From positions 1 through 21,803 of IMG/VR virus record IMGVR_UViG_3300023278_001281: 21,803 bases of DNA. The stretch is one strand, 5' to 3'. This document shows positions 8,275-21,084 of the stretch, one piece after another; within the stretch, counting starts at the first letter, position 1; every line of letters starts with the position of its first letter. The translations under genes were made by a program, and so were the position numbers. The DNA is from a virus. The notes under the pieces were generated by a model. The model worked only from the letters and a program-made list of their open reading frames with translations. It ran no database searches and was not told the DNA's origin.

Positions 8275-8543
8275 TAGATAGTATCCCAGATAGAGTGAGT
8301 ACAGATAGAGTCAGTACCGTCACCTGCAACTACAACTTTGCCCTCACCGTGGTCTACAATCTCAATAGATTCGGTTGCATCAAAGTGAAAGCCTACAGCC
8401 TTGAGAAAGTGCTCGAACTGCTCAAGCATCTCATTGCGTGACATATCTTTAGTAATAATAGAATGCTCAATAAGTACGTCTGGCGAGCTGCGGAATGGAC
8501 ATTCGTAAGGGTATGAAGTGAATTTATAAGATGGGTTTGACAT
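8274..8543 (-). CDS. Conserved phage hypothetical protein (89 aa)
   Basis: The segment SSPDVLIEHSIITKDMSRNEMLEQFEHFLKAVGFHFD is a pattern I recall from phage hypothetical proteins (PDVLxEHxxxTKDM...EMLEQFExFLxxxGxxFD), function unknown. The rest (IVDHGEGKVVVAGDG) is strand-like. First gene after the promoter at 8579-8607; its Shine-Dalgarno (AGAG, long spacing) is weak. Confidence 0.78.
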   Translation of the reverse strand: MSNPSYKFTSYPYECPFRSSPDVLIEHSIITKDMSRNEMLEQFEHFLKAVGFHFDATESIEIVDHGEGKVVVAGDGTDSICTHSIWDTI

Positions 8544-8578
8544 TTTTATTTTGCTCTCTTTGTTTAGTTTATGCGGAT

Positions 8579-8607
8579 ATTATACTAGCCTTTGGGTTAC
8601 TTGTCAA
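8579..8607 (-). promoter_or_regulatory. Leftward promoter of the GroES/MazG operon, inside the end of the AbrB-like gene
   Basis: Minus-strand TTGACA (8607-8602), 17-bp spacer, TATAAT (8584-8579), with AAAAAAAGTTC upstream. The -35 box is coding: it supplies the last codons Val-Leu-Asp-Lys of the gene at 8597-8770. Confidence 0.93.
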
Positions 8608-13378: not shown

Positions 13379-13407
13379 TTGACACTCTTCCTAAACTTCG
13401 GTATAAT
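13379..13407 (+). promoter_or_regulatory. Promoter for the gene at 13434
   Basis: TTGACA 13379-13384, 17-bp spacer, TATAAT 13402-13407, box AAAAAATAACTC upstream. It begins directly after the holin stop at 13375. Confidence 0.93.
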
Positions 13408-13433
13408 AGTTATTCAAATTTTAGGAGAGTACC

Positions 13434-14027
13434 ATCAATTTATTTTACCTTGACGCAGACCTTGACAAATGTGCAGAATATCACGTTGATAAACACGTCA
13501 ACAAGATGATACTCGAAGCAGCACAACTTATCTGTACTAATCTCTGGATAGATCATCTATTCGGATATGTGCCTAGACTTATTACTAAGGAAGAGAACGC
13601 TATTCTTCAGACGACTCGCAAAGAACAGAAAGAGTTGCCTATGGAAGAGCGTATCTTTCCTTACCTTCCTACAATGCAGAACCACCCTAGTTGTGTTTGG
13701 GTGCGTTCTTCTCTCGAGAATTTTTACTGGACTCACTGCTATGCGAACGCGCTTGGCAGTGAGGCTCATTATCGCTATGGCAGCACACACAAAAGCCTAA
13801 CAATGATTAACAATCTTCCAGACCCAAAGCATATTGAAGACCACGGCTTTACTCAGTTTGCTCTTGCTATGACTGAGGAGTTGAAAGATGATGACAACCC
13901 AATACAGGCTTACCGCAACTTCTATATGCTTGACAAAGCCACCTTTGCAGGATGGAAGCATAGAGACAAACCAGAGTGGTGGGACGAAGAACTAGCAGAC
14001 TATGACAACAGGATATCAGGACAATGA
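13434..14027 (+). CDS. Conserved phage protein (197 aa) with apparent AUC start codon
   Basis: The frame is intact and the start region INLFYLDADLDKCAEYHVDKHVNKMILEAAQLICT matches a conserved phage family of unknown function that I recall opening INxFYLD...YHxDKHVxKMIxExAQLL. TAG 13422-13424 closes the frame upstream, and there is no NTG codon between 13425 and ATG 13506. An ideal AGGAG lies six to seven bases before ATC 13434, so AUC is the likely start. Beginning at ATG 13506 would remove 24 conserved residues including the YH-x-DKH motif. A further AWK-like C-terminal part (TFAGWKHRDKPEWWDE) is typical of the family. Confidence 0.75.
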   Translation: MNLFYLDADLDKCAEYHVDKHVNKMILEAAQLICTNLWIDHLFGYVPRLITKEENAILQTTRKEQKELPMEERIFPYLPTMQNHPSCVWVRSSLENFYWTHCYANALGSEAHYRYGSTHKSLTMINNLPDPKHIEDHGFTQFALAMTEELKDDDNPIQAYRNFYMLDKATFAGWKHRDKPEWWDEELADYDNRISGQ

Positions 14028-16507: not shown

Positions 16508-16780
16508 GTGAAAAAGCAAGAACTAGCACTTTTAGTGCAGGACTATGGAGACGCTATTATTACCTATCGTAGCGAACACTCCAGAAAGCTAAAATATAAT
16601 GTTTGTACCTTAGACTTTACTACTCCGTATATTCAGGGTAAGAAAAATCGAGCTAAAGAAACAGAAGATACTCTTCTCTTCTTCTGCTGGGATACAGATT
16701 CTTATAGATTGCTTAGACCTTCTAGCGTATCAAGTGTCGTACCACTGTCATCTATTCTTAAGAATGAAGGCAGACGATAA
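16508..16780 (+). CDS. Conserved phage hypothetical protein (90 aa), GTG start
   Basis: KKQELALLVQDYGDAIITYRSEHSRKLKYNVCTLDFTTPYIQGKKNRAKETEDTLLFFCWDTDSYRLLRPSSVSSVVPLSSIL matches a phage family I recall by its TYRSxxxRKxKYNVxTLDF...LLFFCWDTDSYRLLRP core; function unknown. AGGA before GTG. Only a weak -35-like TTGACC at 16447 lies upstream, so it may be read through the terminator. An inverted repeat TAGCA/TGCTA lies at about 16468-16485. Confidence 0.8.
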   Translation: MKKQELALLVQDYGDAIITYRSEHSRKLKYNVCTLDFTTPYIQGKKNRAKETEDTLLFFCWDTDSYRLLRPSSVSSVVPLSSILKNEGRR

Positions 16781-17136: not shown

Positions 17137-18081
17137 ATGCAAAAGTTTTTAGATCGAGCAAGCAAGTTATACTATGAGGGTACTCCACTCCTTTCGGATG
17201 AAGAGTTTGACCTCTTAGCTGTAAAACATCACTACAACTCTGTTGGCTACACTGTTACAGATGCGGTTTCGCATACGTATCAGATGTACTCTTTACAGAA
17301 ATGTTTTGATCTTGCCAAAGCTCCATTAGATATTAACGAATGTATCTGTACTCCTAAGCTAGATGGAGCAGCAGTATCTATCCTATATGTAGACGGAAAC
17401 CTAGAGTTAGCTTTAACTCGTGGTGACGGCATACAAGGTAGAGATATTACTGATAAGATGAAACACCTAGTACCTACTAAACTCCGTCGAACAGGTCGAT
17501 TTAAAGACTTATACAATGGTGTTGTGCAGATTACTGGTGAAGTAGTTGCTCCTAGCAGTATTACTAACTCGCGTAACTTCGCTTCGGGGTCGCTTGGTTT
17601 GAATGACGTTGAGGAATTCAAAACTCGTCCCTTAGAATTCGTAGCTTATGATGCTTATCCCCATTGCGTTCCTACTTATAGTAACGAAATGAGTATATTA
17701 AAGCAGATGGGCTTGAATGTTGTTACTCGATTTGATTGCACAGACTATCCTACTGATGGCGATGTATATCGTCTCATAGATACACGTGATTTCGAGAAGT
17801 TAGGATACACTGCTAAACACCCACGGGGTGCTTTCGCTCTCAAAGAGCAGAAAGCGGGTGTCGAAACAACCCTTGTTGATGTAGTGTGGCAACTAGGTAA
17901 ATCTGGTGTAGTCAGCCCTGTAGCGCTCTTAGAGCCTGTTGTGGTAGGCGATGCAACAGTATCTAGAGCTACATTGCACAACATCCAGTATATACGCGAT
18001 TTAAACCTAGAGCTAGGATGTAAAGTGGAAATTATACGTTCAGGAGAGATCATACCTCGCGTTGTAAGACGCATAGATTGA
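17137..18081 (+). CDS. ligA: NAD-dependent DNA ligase, subunit A (adenylation and OB domains)
   Basis: The 314 residues cover the Ia start (YYEGTPLLSDEEFDLL), the adenylation domain with motif I K74-L-D-G, TRGDGIQGRDIT (94-105), ITGEVVAP (132-139), NFASGSLG (147-154), and an OB fold (WQLGKSGVVSPVALLEPVVV...ATLHN...IIRSGEIIPRV). It forms the enzyme-AMP at K74 from NAD and seals nicks. Bacterial LigA continues into zinc-finger, HhH and BRCT domains; here those lie in the next gene. AGGGA precedes the ATG. A two-gene NAD ligase is known from T5-like phages. Confidence 0.92.
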   Translation: MQKFLDRASKLYYEGTPLLSDEEFDLLAVKHHYNSVGYTVTDAVSHTYQMYSLQKCFDLAKAPLDINECICTPKLDGAAVSILYVDGNLELALTRGDGIQGRDITDKMKHLVPTKLRRTGRFKDLYNGVVQITGEVVAPSSITNSRNFASGSLGLNDVEEFKTRPLEFVAYDAYPHCVPTYSNEMSILKQMGLNVVTRFDCTDYPTDGDVYRLIDTRDFEKLGYTAKHPRGAFALKEQKAGVETTLVDVVWQLGKSGVVSPVALLEPVVVGDATVSRATLHNIQYIRDLNLELGCKVEIIRSGEIIPRVVRRID

Positions 18082-18105: not shown

Positions 18106-18134
18106 TTGACAATAATCTTAAAACGCCGTATAAT
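18106..18134 (+). promoter_or_regulatory. Promoter between the two ligase genes
   Basis: TTGACA 18106-18111, 17-bp spacer, TATAAT 18129-18134, box AAAAATAACTC upstream. It gives the second subunit its own transcript. Confidence 0.93.
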
Positions 18135-18160
18135 ACATATTCAATTTCAGAGGAAAGACC

Positions 18161-18910
18161 ATGACGAAAATCGAAGCCCCAACTACTTGTCCATCTTGTA
18201 GCTCAGTCTTAGAAGACGTCAACTTTCTTTTGTATTGTAGAAACGCATCTTGCGGAGCTAAGATCTCAAAATTGATAGCCCATTTTGCTACTAGCCTTAA
18301 AATCAAAGGATTAGGCCCAGCTACTATCCAAAAGCTAGACATACAGTCTCTCGAAGAATTGTATGAACTAAGCCTGGAGGAGATCGTAGATGGTCTAGGC
18401 TCTGAGAAGCTAGGCGAAAAGCTATACGCTGAGATTCTTCGCTCCACAGATGCACCTCTAAATGTCCTTTTACCGGCATTTAGTATCCCTCTTATCGGGA
18501 AATCAGCTTCGGCAAAACTATCGAAGGTCTGCATAGATATAGACGAAATAGACTACGATATGTGTCGTTCTGCTGGTCTCGGTGAGAAGGCTACTGCCAA
18601 CTTACTTCATTGGCTAGAAATGGAGTTCTTTCAACTGAATATGCTACCCTTCAGTTTCGAGTTTGTAAACAACGTAGTACCCTCAGCCACGCAAGGCGTT
18701 GTATGTATCACTGGAAAGCTAGTGAGCTACAAGACTAAAGCAGAAGCACATAAGCTCTTACAGGAGCTTGGTTATGAGGTAAAAACCAGCCTGACCAAGG
18801 ATGTCACGATTCTGGTAAATGAAAGTGGCGTAGAATCCGCCAAAACTATTAAAGCCAGAAACGCTGGCGTAGAGATTATAACTAACCTAACTGAAATTAT
18901 TGGAGAATAA
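18161..18910 (+). CDS. ligB: NAD-dependent DNA ligase, subunit B (Zn finger, HhH, BRCT)
   Basis: Four cysteines, C10-x2-C13 and C26-x4-C31, form the ligase zinc finger. Residues about 35-165 are the helix-hairpin-helix region (KIKGLGPATIQKL, DGLGSEKLGEKLYAEI, SIPLIGKSASAKLSK), and about 176-249 are a BRCT domain (TQGVVCITGKLVSYKTKAEAHKLLQELGYEVK). It provides the DNA-binding half that bacterial LigA carries in one chain, so it should assemble with the product of the preceding gene. GAGGAAAGACC precedes the ATG. Confidence 0.92.
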   Translation: MTKIEAPTTCPSCSSVLEDVNFLLYCRNASCGAKISKLIAHFATSLKIKGLGPATIQKLDIQSLEELYELSLEEIVDGLGSEKLGEKLYAEILRSTDAPLNVLLPAFSIPLIGKSASAKLSKVCIDIDEIDYDMCRSAGLGEKATANLLHWLEMEFFQLNMLPFSFEFVNNVVPSATQGVVCITGKLVSYKTKAEAHKLLQELGYEVKTSLTKDVTILVNESGVESAKTIKARNAGVEIITNLTEIIGE

Positions 18911-18914
18911 AATT

Positions 18915-19643
18915 ATGTCAACTTTACCTAAGTGGACTGACGAGCGTACTGCTCAACTAACTGAATTCGTCGGTGGCGAAAGCCCCGTATCACAAGCTAC
19001 TGTTGCAGACGCAGCTGTTCAGCTTGAAACATCTACTCGTTCCATCTCAAGCAAATTGCGCAAGATGGGTTTTGACGTAGAATTAGCCTCTGCAGGCGCT
19101 GGTAAGTCTTTTACCGATGCTCAAGAAGCTACTCTTTCTGCTTTTGTCACTGACAATAGCGGTTCATACACTTATGCAGATATTGCTGGCCATTTTGAAG
19201 ATGGTGCTTTCTCTCCTAAGTCAATCCAGGGTAAGATCCTGTCTATGGAACTGACTGGCCATGTTAAGCCTGCTCCTAAAGTAGAAGCTGTACGCACGTA
19301 CTCTTCTGACGAAGAAGCCACCTTTATCGCTATGGTAAATGCTGGTGCTTTCGTAGAAGCTATCGCTGAAGCAATGGGTCGTCCAATCAACTCTGTTCGT
19401 GGTAAGGCTCTTAGCCTCCTGCGTGCTGGTGAGATCAGTGCTATTCCTAAGCAAGAAGTAACTAAAGGCGCTTCAAAAGAAGATCCATTGGCTACCTTGG
19501 GTGATCTGAGCACTCAGACTGTTGAAGCTATCGCTGAAGCGATTGGTAAAACTGCTCGTGGTGTTAAGACTATGCTGACTCGTCGTGGCCTCGTTGCTGC
19601 TGACTATGATGGCGCAGCTAAGAAAGAAAAAGCTTCTGCTTAA
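18915..19643 (+). CDS. Four-repeat Myb/SANT-like DNA-binding protein, member 5 (242 aa)
   Basis: Four divergent copies of an about 50-residue three-helix unit: 5-54 (KWTDERTAQLTEFV...RSISSKLRKMGF), 64-116 (SFTDAQEATLSAFV...PKSIQGKILSMEL), 127-177 (TYSSDEEATFIAMV...NSVRGKALSLL) and a shorter one at 191-227 (ARGVKTMLTRRGL). It ends in a Lys/Ala-rich tail. Multi-repeat architecture suggests binding of extended DNA. GGAG nine bases before ATG, just after ligase B. Two hairpins follow the stop. Confidence 0.8.
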   Translation: MSTLPKWTDERTAQLTEFVGGESPVSQATVADAAVQLETSTRSISSKLRKMGFDVELASAGAGKSFTDAQEATLSAFVTDNSGSYTYADIAGHFEDGAFSPKSIQGKILSMELTGHVKPAPKVEAVRTYSSDEEATFIAMVNAGAFVEAIAEAMGRPINSVRGKALSLLRAGEISAIPKQEVTKGASKEDPLATLGDLSTQTVEAIAEAIGKTARGVKTMLTRRGLVAADYDGAAKKEKASA

Positions 19644-19659
19644 TCTAACTTAGTATCAG

Positions 19660-19712
19660 CTACCGAGTACTCGGTAGTTCCAATGGCAGGCTCTACGGGG
19701 TCTGCCATCTTT
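19660..19712 (+). terminator. Two hairpins after the four-repeat gene
   Basis: 19660-19677 is a perfect 18-bp palindrome, CTACCGAGTACTCGGTAG. ATGGCAG (19683-19689) pairs with CTGCCAT (19702-19708) and is followed by a short CTTT. The second may be a weak terminator. The first, being symmetric without a loop, could also be a protein site. Confidence 0.6.
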
Positions 19713-19734
19713 AATATGAATCGGGAGAATTTCA

Positions 19735-21084
19735 TTGAATATCGCTAGTGCCTTAATTAAACGCACACTTGAGTTACAAGACTTTGAGACTTGGACACAG
19801 GTGCATAAGCGTTATTTGCCTAGTGAGTATCACAGTTTGCATTCAATTATTGATAAGCATTCTGAGAAGTTCCATAAGATGCCCTCGATTGAGGATCTTA
19901 AACTTGAGATTCGTGATTCTAGTACCCGTGAGAAGCTGTACGCTGTAGAAGCTGTCAAGGCAGATGCAGAACCGTATATGCTCCTTCAGTACTTGAAGAA
20001 CGAATATACTCAGAAAGAGATCCTAACCTCGCTCGAAGATTATGTCGAAAACAGTGTAGCTTTTGAAGATGCACAAGAATCGGTTGATCACCTTCATCAA
20101 ATTGTCCTCGACATCGAAGGCAAAGTTGATCTGGAGGAACCACAGGAAAGTATGCAACGTATTGAACTGTTCGAGCCTGAGGAAGATTTAGCTAAGTACA
20201 TACCACTTGGCCTCAACGAAGAGTACGACCTTGATATTCAATTCTCCCCTAGAGATTTGGTTATGGTAGGTGGTAAACGAGGTGCAGGCAAGTCGGTAAT
20301 CTGTGCTAACATTGCAAACAATGTTTATGAATCTGGAAAGTCGGCTATCTATTTCACTATTGAGATGGATAGTCGGTCTATCTTGCAACGCTGTTGCGCT
20401 ATCGCTACTAAAGTACCTTTTTCACGTCTACGCACTAAGAATCTTAGTGTTGCTGAGTGGGAGAAAGTTGCAACATGGTGGGCGAATCGTTTTGTGAATG
20501 GGCAAGACCGTTTGAAGGAATATAAAGAACATAGAGATTTTGAGAAGTTTCACTCAGCACTAAAGACAACCTGCGAGATCCTCCCGACTCAACAGTTGAA
20601 CGTAGTCTATGATCCCTCTCTCACCTTAGCCAAGATTCGAGCCGAGCTTGATAAAAAGGTTAAGGCGATGAATGTCGGAGTCGTTATTGTCGATTATATG
20701 AACCAAGTAAGGCGGTCGAACCTTCCATCACGAGGCGGTCAGTACGACTGGACTGAGCAGATCGAAGTAAGTAAAGCATTGAAGTCAATGGCACAAGAAT
20801 ACGATTGTACCGTATTCTCACCATATCAAACAGACGCTAGTGGTGAAGCGCGTTTTGCTAAAGGTATTCTTGATGCGGCTGATGCAGCCTATACTCTTGA
20901 GACCTGGGATCACGAAGATGGTTGCATGACCTTCAATTGTGTAAAAATGCGTTCTGCTTCTATGAAGTCCTTCACATCTACAGTAGACTGGGAGTCCTTG
21001 AAAATCGGACCCGACACTGCTTTGACACCTAAAGAGAAAGACGATTCTTCCCATAAGACTGGTGAAGACGTTCACGATCTTTAA
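19735..21084 (+). CDS. DnaB-type replicative helicase (449 aa), TTG start
   Basis: An N-terminal helical domain (residues about 1-150) precedes a RecA-like core with Walker A GGKRGAGKS (179-187), the IEMD region (209-212) of DnaB motif 1a, Walker B VVIVD (316-320) followed by YMNQV, and the later LKSMAQEYDCTVFSPYQ and VKMRSASM segments typical of SF4. It would unwind DNA 5'-3' ahead of the fork as a hexamer. GGGAG lies seven to eight bases before TTG 19735; there is no ATG nearby in frame. Confidence 0.9.
   Translation: MNIASALIKRTLELQDFETWTQVHKRYLPSEYHSLHSIIDKHSEKFHKMPSIEDLKLEIRDSSTREKLYAVEAVKADAEPYMLLQYLKNEYTQKEILTSLEDYVENSVAFEDAQESVDHLHQIVLDIEGKVDLEEPQESMQRIELFEPEEDLAKYIPLGLNEEYDLDIQFSPRDLVMVGGKRGAGKSVICANIANNVYESGKSAIYFTIEMDSRSILQRCCAIATKVPFSRLRTKNLSVAEWEKVATWWANRFVNGQDRLKEYKEHRDFEKFHSALKTTCEILPTQQLNVVYDPSLTLAKIRAELDKKVKAMNVGVVIVDYMNQVRRSNLPSRGGQYDWTEQIEVSKALKSMAQEYDCTVFSPYQTDASGEARFAKGILDAADAAYTLETWDHEDGCMTFNCVKMRSASMKSFTSTVDWESLKIGPDTALTPKEKDDSSHKTGEDVHDL

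Follow-up and report, generated by a model that had tools for sequence, protein, structure and literature searches.

At which codon does translation begin in a conserved phage gene whose frame, at its conserved start, offers no ATG, GTG, TTG or CTG? Near-cognate starts are known in a handful of bacterial genes, and the locus considered here, part of a 21,803-nucleotide stretch of viral DNA (IMG/VR record IMGVR_UViG_3300023278_001281, positions 1 to 21,803; hereafter the window), carries an ATC at that position. Comparison with homologues makes it very probable that this gene, conserved in a group of uncultured marine phages, begins with AUC or AUU and not with AUG. The features concerned, all on the plus strand of the window, are as follows.

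13379..13407 (+): consensus sigma70 promoter TTGACA-17-TATAAT, exact, with 12 of 12 positions matching
13408..13433 (+): leader, without ATG, GTG or TTG in any frame; identical to that of loci L003 and L004
13422..13424 (+): TAG stop in the reading frame, closing it 12 nt upstream of the ATC and overlapping the Shine-Dalgarno sequence (T-AGGAG)
13423..13427 (+): Shine-Dalgarno sequence (SD) AGGAG, 15 nt after the promoter and 6 nt before the ATC
13434..13436 (+): candidate AUC start codon, marked by a conserved column in homologues, a closed frame and the SD
13434..14027 (+): gene of 197 codons plus TGA (14025-14027), with a match to PHROG 624
13506..13508 (+): ATG at codon 25, the next in-frame ATG, GTG, TTG or CTG, within the conserved motif DKHVNKMILE; an internal Met, not a start
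18106..18163 (+): sister promoter-leader cassette, 79% identical over 53 bp, preceding another gene with an ordinary ATG at 18161

The start site in the window

The original prediction proposed an AUC start at 13434 on four grounds, each of which was borne out. The closure of the frame upstream of INLFYLD by the TAG at 13422-13424 was read directly (TAG, GAG AGT ACC ATC (13434-13436) AAT TTA TTT TAC CTT GAC, giving *EST-INLFYLD), and the absence of any in-frame ATG, GTG, TTG or CTG before 13506 holds in the window and in the identical loci L003 and L004. The AGGAG is well placed, with a spacing of 6 nt, and the promoter described as perfect is an exact TTGACA-17-TATAAT, from which the predicted transcription start lies about 19-20 nt before the ATC.

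The promoter is not peculiar to the gene at ATC 13434. The window holds 14 exact copies of TTGACA-17-TATAAT, counting both strands, which makes it a genome-wide cassette; matches with at most two mismatches number 19, against 3.5 expected. Exact copies stand, for example, at 1448, 2255, 3964, 8579, 11309, 17083 and 18106, several of them with a similar leader. NAD-dependent DNA ligase is encoded in the window as two adjoining open reading frames (17137-18081 and 18161-18910, +) with a promoter cassette between them, and in 18-21 related sequences each half is conserved as a family of its own. A search of the window against Rfam gave no match, nor did megablast with the window or blastn with the gene against phage records, in which no close relatives were found among named phages.

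Start codons across homologous loci

A scan of IMG/VR yielded 80 homologous loci with 74-100% protein identity, in which codon 1 is ATC (28), ATT (22), ATG (22), TTG (6) or GTG (2); no other codon occurs, and every variant is either ATG or one base away from it. The presence of ATC or ATT at the same column in 50 of these 80 relatives supports the AUC start originally proposed. The 50 loci, drawn from about 45 differently numbered JGI datasets, all have a TATAAT promoter immediately before them, a leader of 19-23 nt and an in-frame closure 12-69 nt upstream of codon 1, many at 12 nt as in the window. Their first downstream in-frame ATG, GTG or TTG lies at codon 18 or later and is mostly the ATG at codon 25. 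ATA was not found at codon 1 in any of the 39 distinct ATC/ATT sequences, although 45% of the gene's internal Ile codons are ATA, and codon 1 is thus not an ordinary Ile codon. Across the same 39 sequences, pN/pS was 0.064 for codons 2-24, compared with 0.142 for the rest of the gene; such strong purifying selection indicates that the stretch is translated.

The start column is also common to more distant family members, at about 30-45% identity. It was occupied exclusively by NUG codons in 189 more distant IMG/VR loci (ATG 175, GTG 12, TTG 2), a count in which ATG is favoured by the initial Met included in the peptide pattern of two of the three distant-family scans, the third having been run without it. 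Residues N2, F4, D19, H21 and K24 do not vary among 71 diverse homologues. Where the promoter is missing, as in four members of the set and in a 62% relative from a Halieaceae bin, the start is ATG or GTG. The latter (L389, ATG start) lies on a contig binned with a metagenome-assembled genome of Halieaceae, marine gammaproteobacteria; the same bin also holds a 73% relative of the helicase, a weak hint as to the host.

These comparisons bear directly on the readings that dispense with an AUC start. A sequencing or assembly error of an ATG, from which ATC differs by a single base, can be dismissed: an ATG was sought at the site in other assemblies, yet L003 and L004, the nearest and mutually independent ones, repeat the leader and the ATC of the window identically, and across many datasets the same class of codon recurs in 50 of the 80 loci. 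Initiation at ATG 13506, with the ATC being no start codon, would have the merit of using the first canonical in-frame start, but it would leave the purifying selection on codons 2-24 unaccounted for and would place relatives in the position of switching to NTG precisely at a column that initiates nothing. It would also discard the invariant N2, F4, D19, H21 and K24, which rules out a start at 13506, and homologues that begin there were sought without success, the annotated starts (ATG or GTG) of eight distant phage records falling instead on the ATC column; we regard this reading as very improbable. The same holds for an out-of-frame or upstream start followed by a frameshift or by readthrough of the TAG. 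A few relatives do keep the frame open for up to 69 nt upstream, but between promoter and codon 1 no ATG, GTG or TTG was found in any frame in any of the 50 ATC/ATT loci, and in many of them the in-frame stop lies just 12 nt upstream. A pseudogene was likewise considered and rejected, there being purifying selection throughout the gene.

The start codon has not been static. On a tree built without codon 1 it changed at least 18 times. Twelve switches were between AUC/AUU and NUG, and well-supported branches force 8 of these; separate trees for the 5' and 3' portions of the gene gave 10 and 12 such switches (6 and 7 forced). Some leaders are common to unlike genes, and some of the switching may therefore reflect exchange of the 5' end by recombination and not fresh mutation. 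The TTG variants L012, L013, L035, L036 and L039 read ACC ATTG AAT, which has one base more than ACC ATC AAT; TTG may derive from the AUC/AUU form by insertion. Across the loci compared, AUC or AUU at the start is a trait of the lineage, not a single-base oddity.

Shine-Dalgarno strength, restriction to one gene and the product

The strength of the SD was compared with the start codon it serves. Predicted pairing with the anti-SD averaged -7.5 kcal/mol for ATC, -7.2 for ATT and -8.9 for TTG, as against -4.1 for ATG, and the ranges do not overlap: all 50 AUC/AUU loci fall between -6.9 and -8.9 kcal/mol and the AUG loci between -3.1 and -6.6. Other genes of these phages follow the same trend (ATG -6.0, GTG -6.4, TTG -7.7 kcal/mol). 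Pairs controlled for relatedness split about 6 to 0 (p about 0.03) at a threshold of -7 and about 4 to 0 (p 0.125) at thresholds of -5 to -6.5; the informative independent pairs are few and all in the same direction, and the trade-off is linked with leader haplotypes. As the six TTG loci have equally strong SDs, the trade-off is graded and not special to AUC/AUU. Such a pattern would be the expected outcome of stabilising selection on output.

Start codons elsewhere in these phages were surveyed, with removal of overlaps, in 31 contigs (481 kb), from which 49 conserved gene families were built. Clear start columns were ATG, GTG or TTG, and only this family of the 49 showed a clear AUC/AUU. Of 178 distinct promoter cassettes, 101 are followed by an SD and an NTG and 13 by the AUC/AUU of this gene, the rest having no clear start; other AUC/AUU-like sites behind promoters were not accepted, as they had no clear gene or an NTG nearby. 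One start remained ambiguous between ATT and TTG, in a homologue of the gene at window 8276-8579 (-), which reads ...GGAGATACC ATT TTG; the homologues of that gene in L098 (near 1003, +) and L106 (minus-strand frame 19629-19998, in reverse-strand coordinates) read AAAGGAGATACC ATT TTG AAC. Less common starts are kept in two further genes: TTG in 17 of 17 relatives of the DnaB-like helicase gene at window 19735 (+), and GTG in 18 of 19 relatives of the gene at 16508 (+).

Searches for tRNA genes found none in the window or in the majority of related contigs, and none of the ATC/ATT contigs, whose records are all fragments, showed a phage initiator tRNA. The tRNA-Met of L102 does not have the G-C-rich anticodon stem typical of an initiator. 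Related phages differ in this respect: a 54-kb contig with the GTG form of the gene and no promoter before it carries 18 tRNA genes (L099, 12074-18512), and a 69-kb relative (L095-L098) carries none. The latter also contains highly repetitive open frames rich in Thr, Phe and Asn, two of which overlap (L096, 1594-5974).

The product matches PHROG 624 'DNA binding protein' (E 1.5e-42), and its AlphaFold2 model is confident and mostly helical (mean pLDDT 94.8); PDB sequence and fold searches with it returned no relative. Of 71 family members, 49 matched PF03013 (pyrimidine dimer DNA glycosylase), the best at 7.6e-11 and several only just under the cut-off; the window protein alone gave no match to it. 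On this evidence the product appears to be DNA-repair-like, with a distant likeness to the PF03013 glycosylases. Glycosylases with AP lyase activity can use an amino group at the N-terminus as nucleophile. The fixed position of the start column would agree with catalysis of that kind, which we offer only as a suggestion. The literature on T4 endonuclease V (DenV) concerns its amino terminus (PMC12499884). The family resembles DenV in its matches to PF03013 and in that, in members inspected singly, residue 1 falls on profile position 1, as in DenV; it differs in that the window protein itself does not match PF03013, in that no fold or profile match to DenV was found, a direct profile comparison included, and in that residue 2 is Asn. 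A DNA-cutting product would be a possible reason for keeping the dose low.

Interpretation and known systems

We consider it very likely that this gene does initiate at AUC, the weak codon being compensated by a strong SD, and that the effect is probably to hold down the dose of a DNA-repair-like protein. Initiator fMet-tRNA(fMet) would initiate at AUC 13434 with the A-U and U-A pairs formed and the third position mismatched, and a strong SD at a suitable distance, on a short leader that follows a consensus promoter, would rescue this weak start. If initiation strength is set jointly by codon and SD, the start codon would be free to move among AUG, UUG, GUG, AUC and AUU within the lineage, weak codons being paired with strong SDs and AUG with weak ones. 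The purpose, we infer, is probably low output of a DNA-repair-like (possibly DNA-cutting) protein despite the standard strong promoter cassette; given a real AUC start, we lean towards dose tuning as its most likely role. Rejection of AUC-type starts by IF3 is established for other genes, and by analogy with infC, sigR, pcnB, cvfC1 and ccpN the factor would act against the AUC/AUU start here as well.

Two other readings accept the start and differ as to its meaning. Start choice might be generally relaxed in host or phage, for instance through a phage-coded initiator tRNA, and AUC/AUU would then have no particular meaning. Several start codons are indeed tolerated at one site, but no other family of the 49 clearly uses AUC or AUU, and neither the scarcity of tRNA genes in the window and most related contigs nor the stem of the L102 tRNA-Met fits the idea, which we judge improbable. 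Alternatively, AUC/AUU might be kept for the sake of repression by IF3, expression of the gene rising in infection as initiation fidelity or the supply of free IF3 drops. The AUU, AUC and GUC starts of infC and sigR are repressed in this way (PMC5472188), and the codon class is kept across the lineage while being restricted to a single gene. Close relatives that share the promoter nevertheless use AUG or UUG, and the gene can thus do without such a switch; a search of 13 related records, all of them fragments, for an IF3-like gene (IF3_C match) found none, and the SD trade-off suggests that level rather than responsiveness is what matters. We regard this as unlikely, though it is the chief rival of dose tuning. 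Fainter still is the prospect that AUC/AUU forms an infection sensor through which shifts in IF3 availability or fidelity switch a single repair-type gene, some lineages having replaced it by AUG, constitutive and behind a weak SD.

With dose tuning as the preferred reading, the locus offers five start codons at one site in close relatives, each with its own SD, as a natural series for the trade between codon and SD and for the role of IF3. It also bears on annotation: gene callers limited to ATG, GTG and TTG drop the first 24 residues of the protein, invariant ones included. In the literature searched, no paper was found that describes conserved AUC or AUU initiation for a gene of a phage.

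Among known systems, the infC start is ATT in E. coli and ATC in Streptomyces (PMC5472188). The original comparison with infC was apt as regards the codons, which are the same; its hint at autoregulation fails, the product here not being IF3, so that there is no direct autoregulatory loop. Streptomyces sigR, whose GTC start is repressed by IF3 (PMC5472188), is similar as a gene other than infC with its dose set by a non-canonical start; the codon is different, and the effect of IF3 has been shown there. The closest precedents are E. coli pcnB and S. aureus cvfC1 and ccpN. Like infC, E. coli pcnB has an AUU start (PMC4245954), and its expression is limited by the inefficient start codon (Binns and Masters 2002, as cited in PMC13009471 and PMC9410913). 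It shares with the present gene a near-cognate start outside the translation factors, whereas here the gene is from a phage, AUC is used besides AUU, and among close relatives the codon changes in both directions. In S. aureus, the conserved starts of cvfC1 (AUU) and ccpN (AUA) lie behind extended SDs and yield about 10% of an AUG reporter (PMC13009471). The likeness lies in a conserved near-cognate start joined to an unusually strong SD; in the phage lineage, as far as its sequences tell, AUA is absent, the SD is strong but not extended, and the codon exchanges with NUG.
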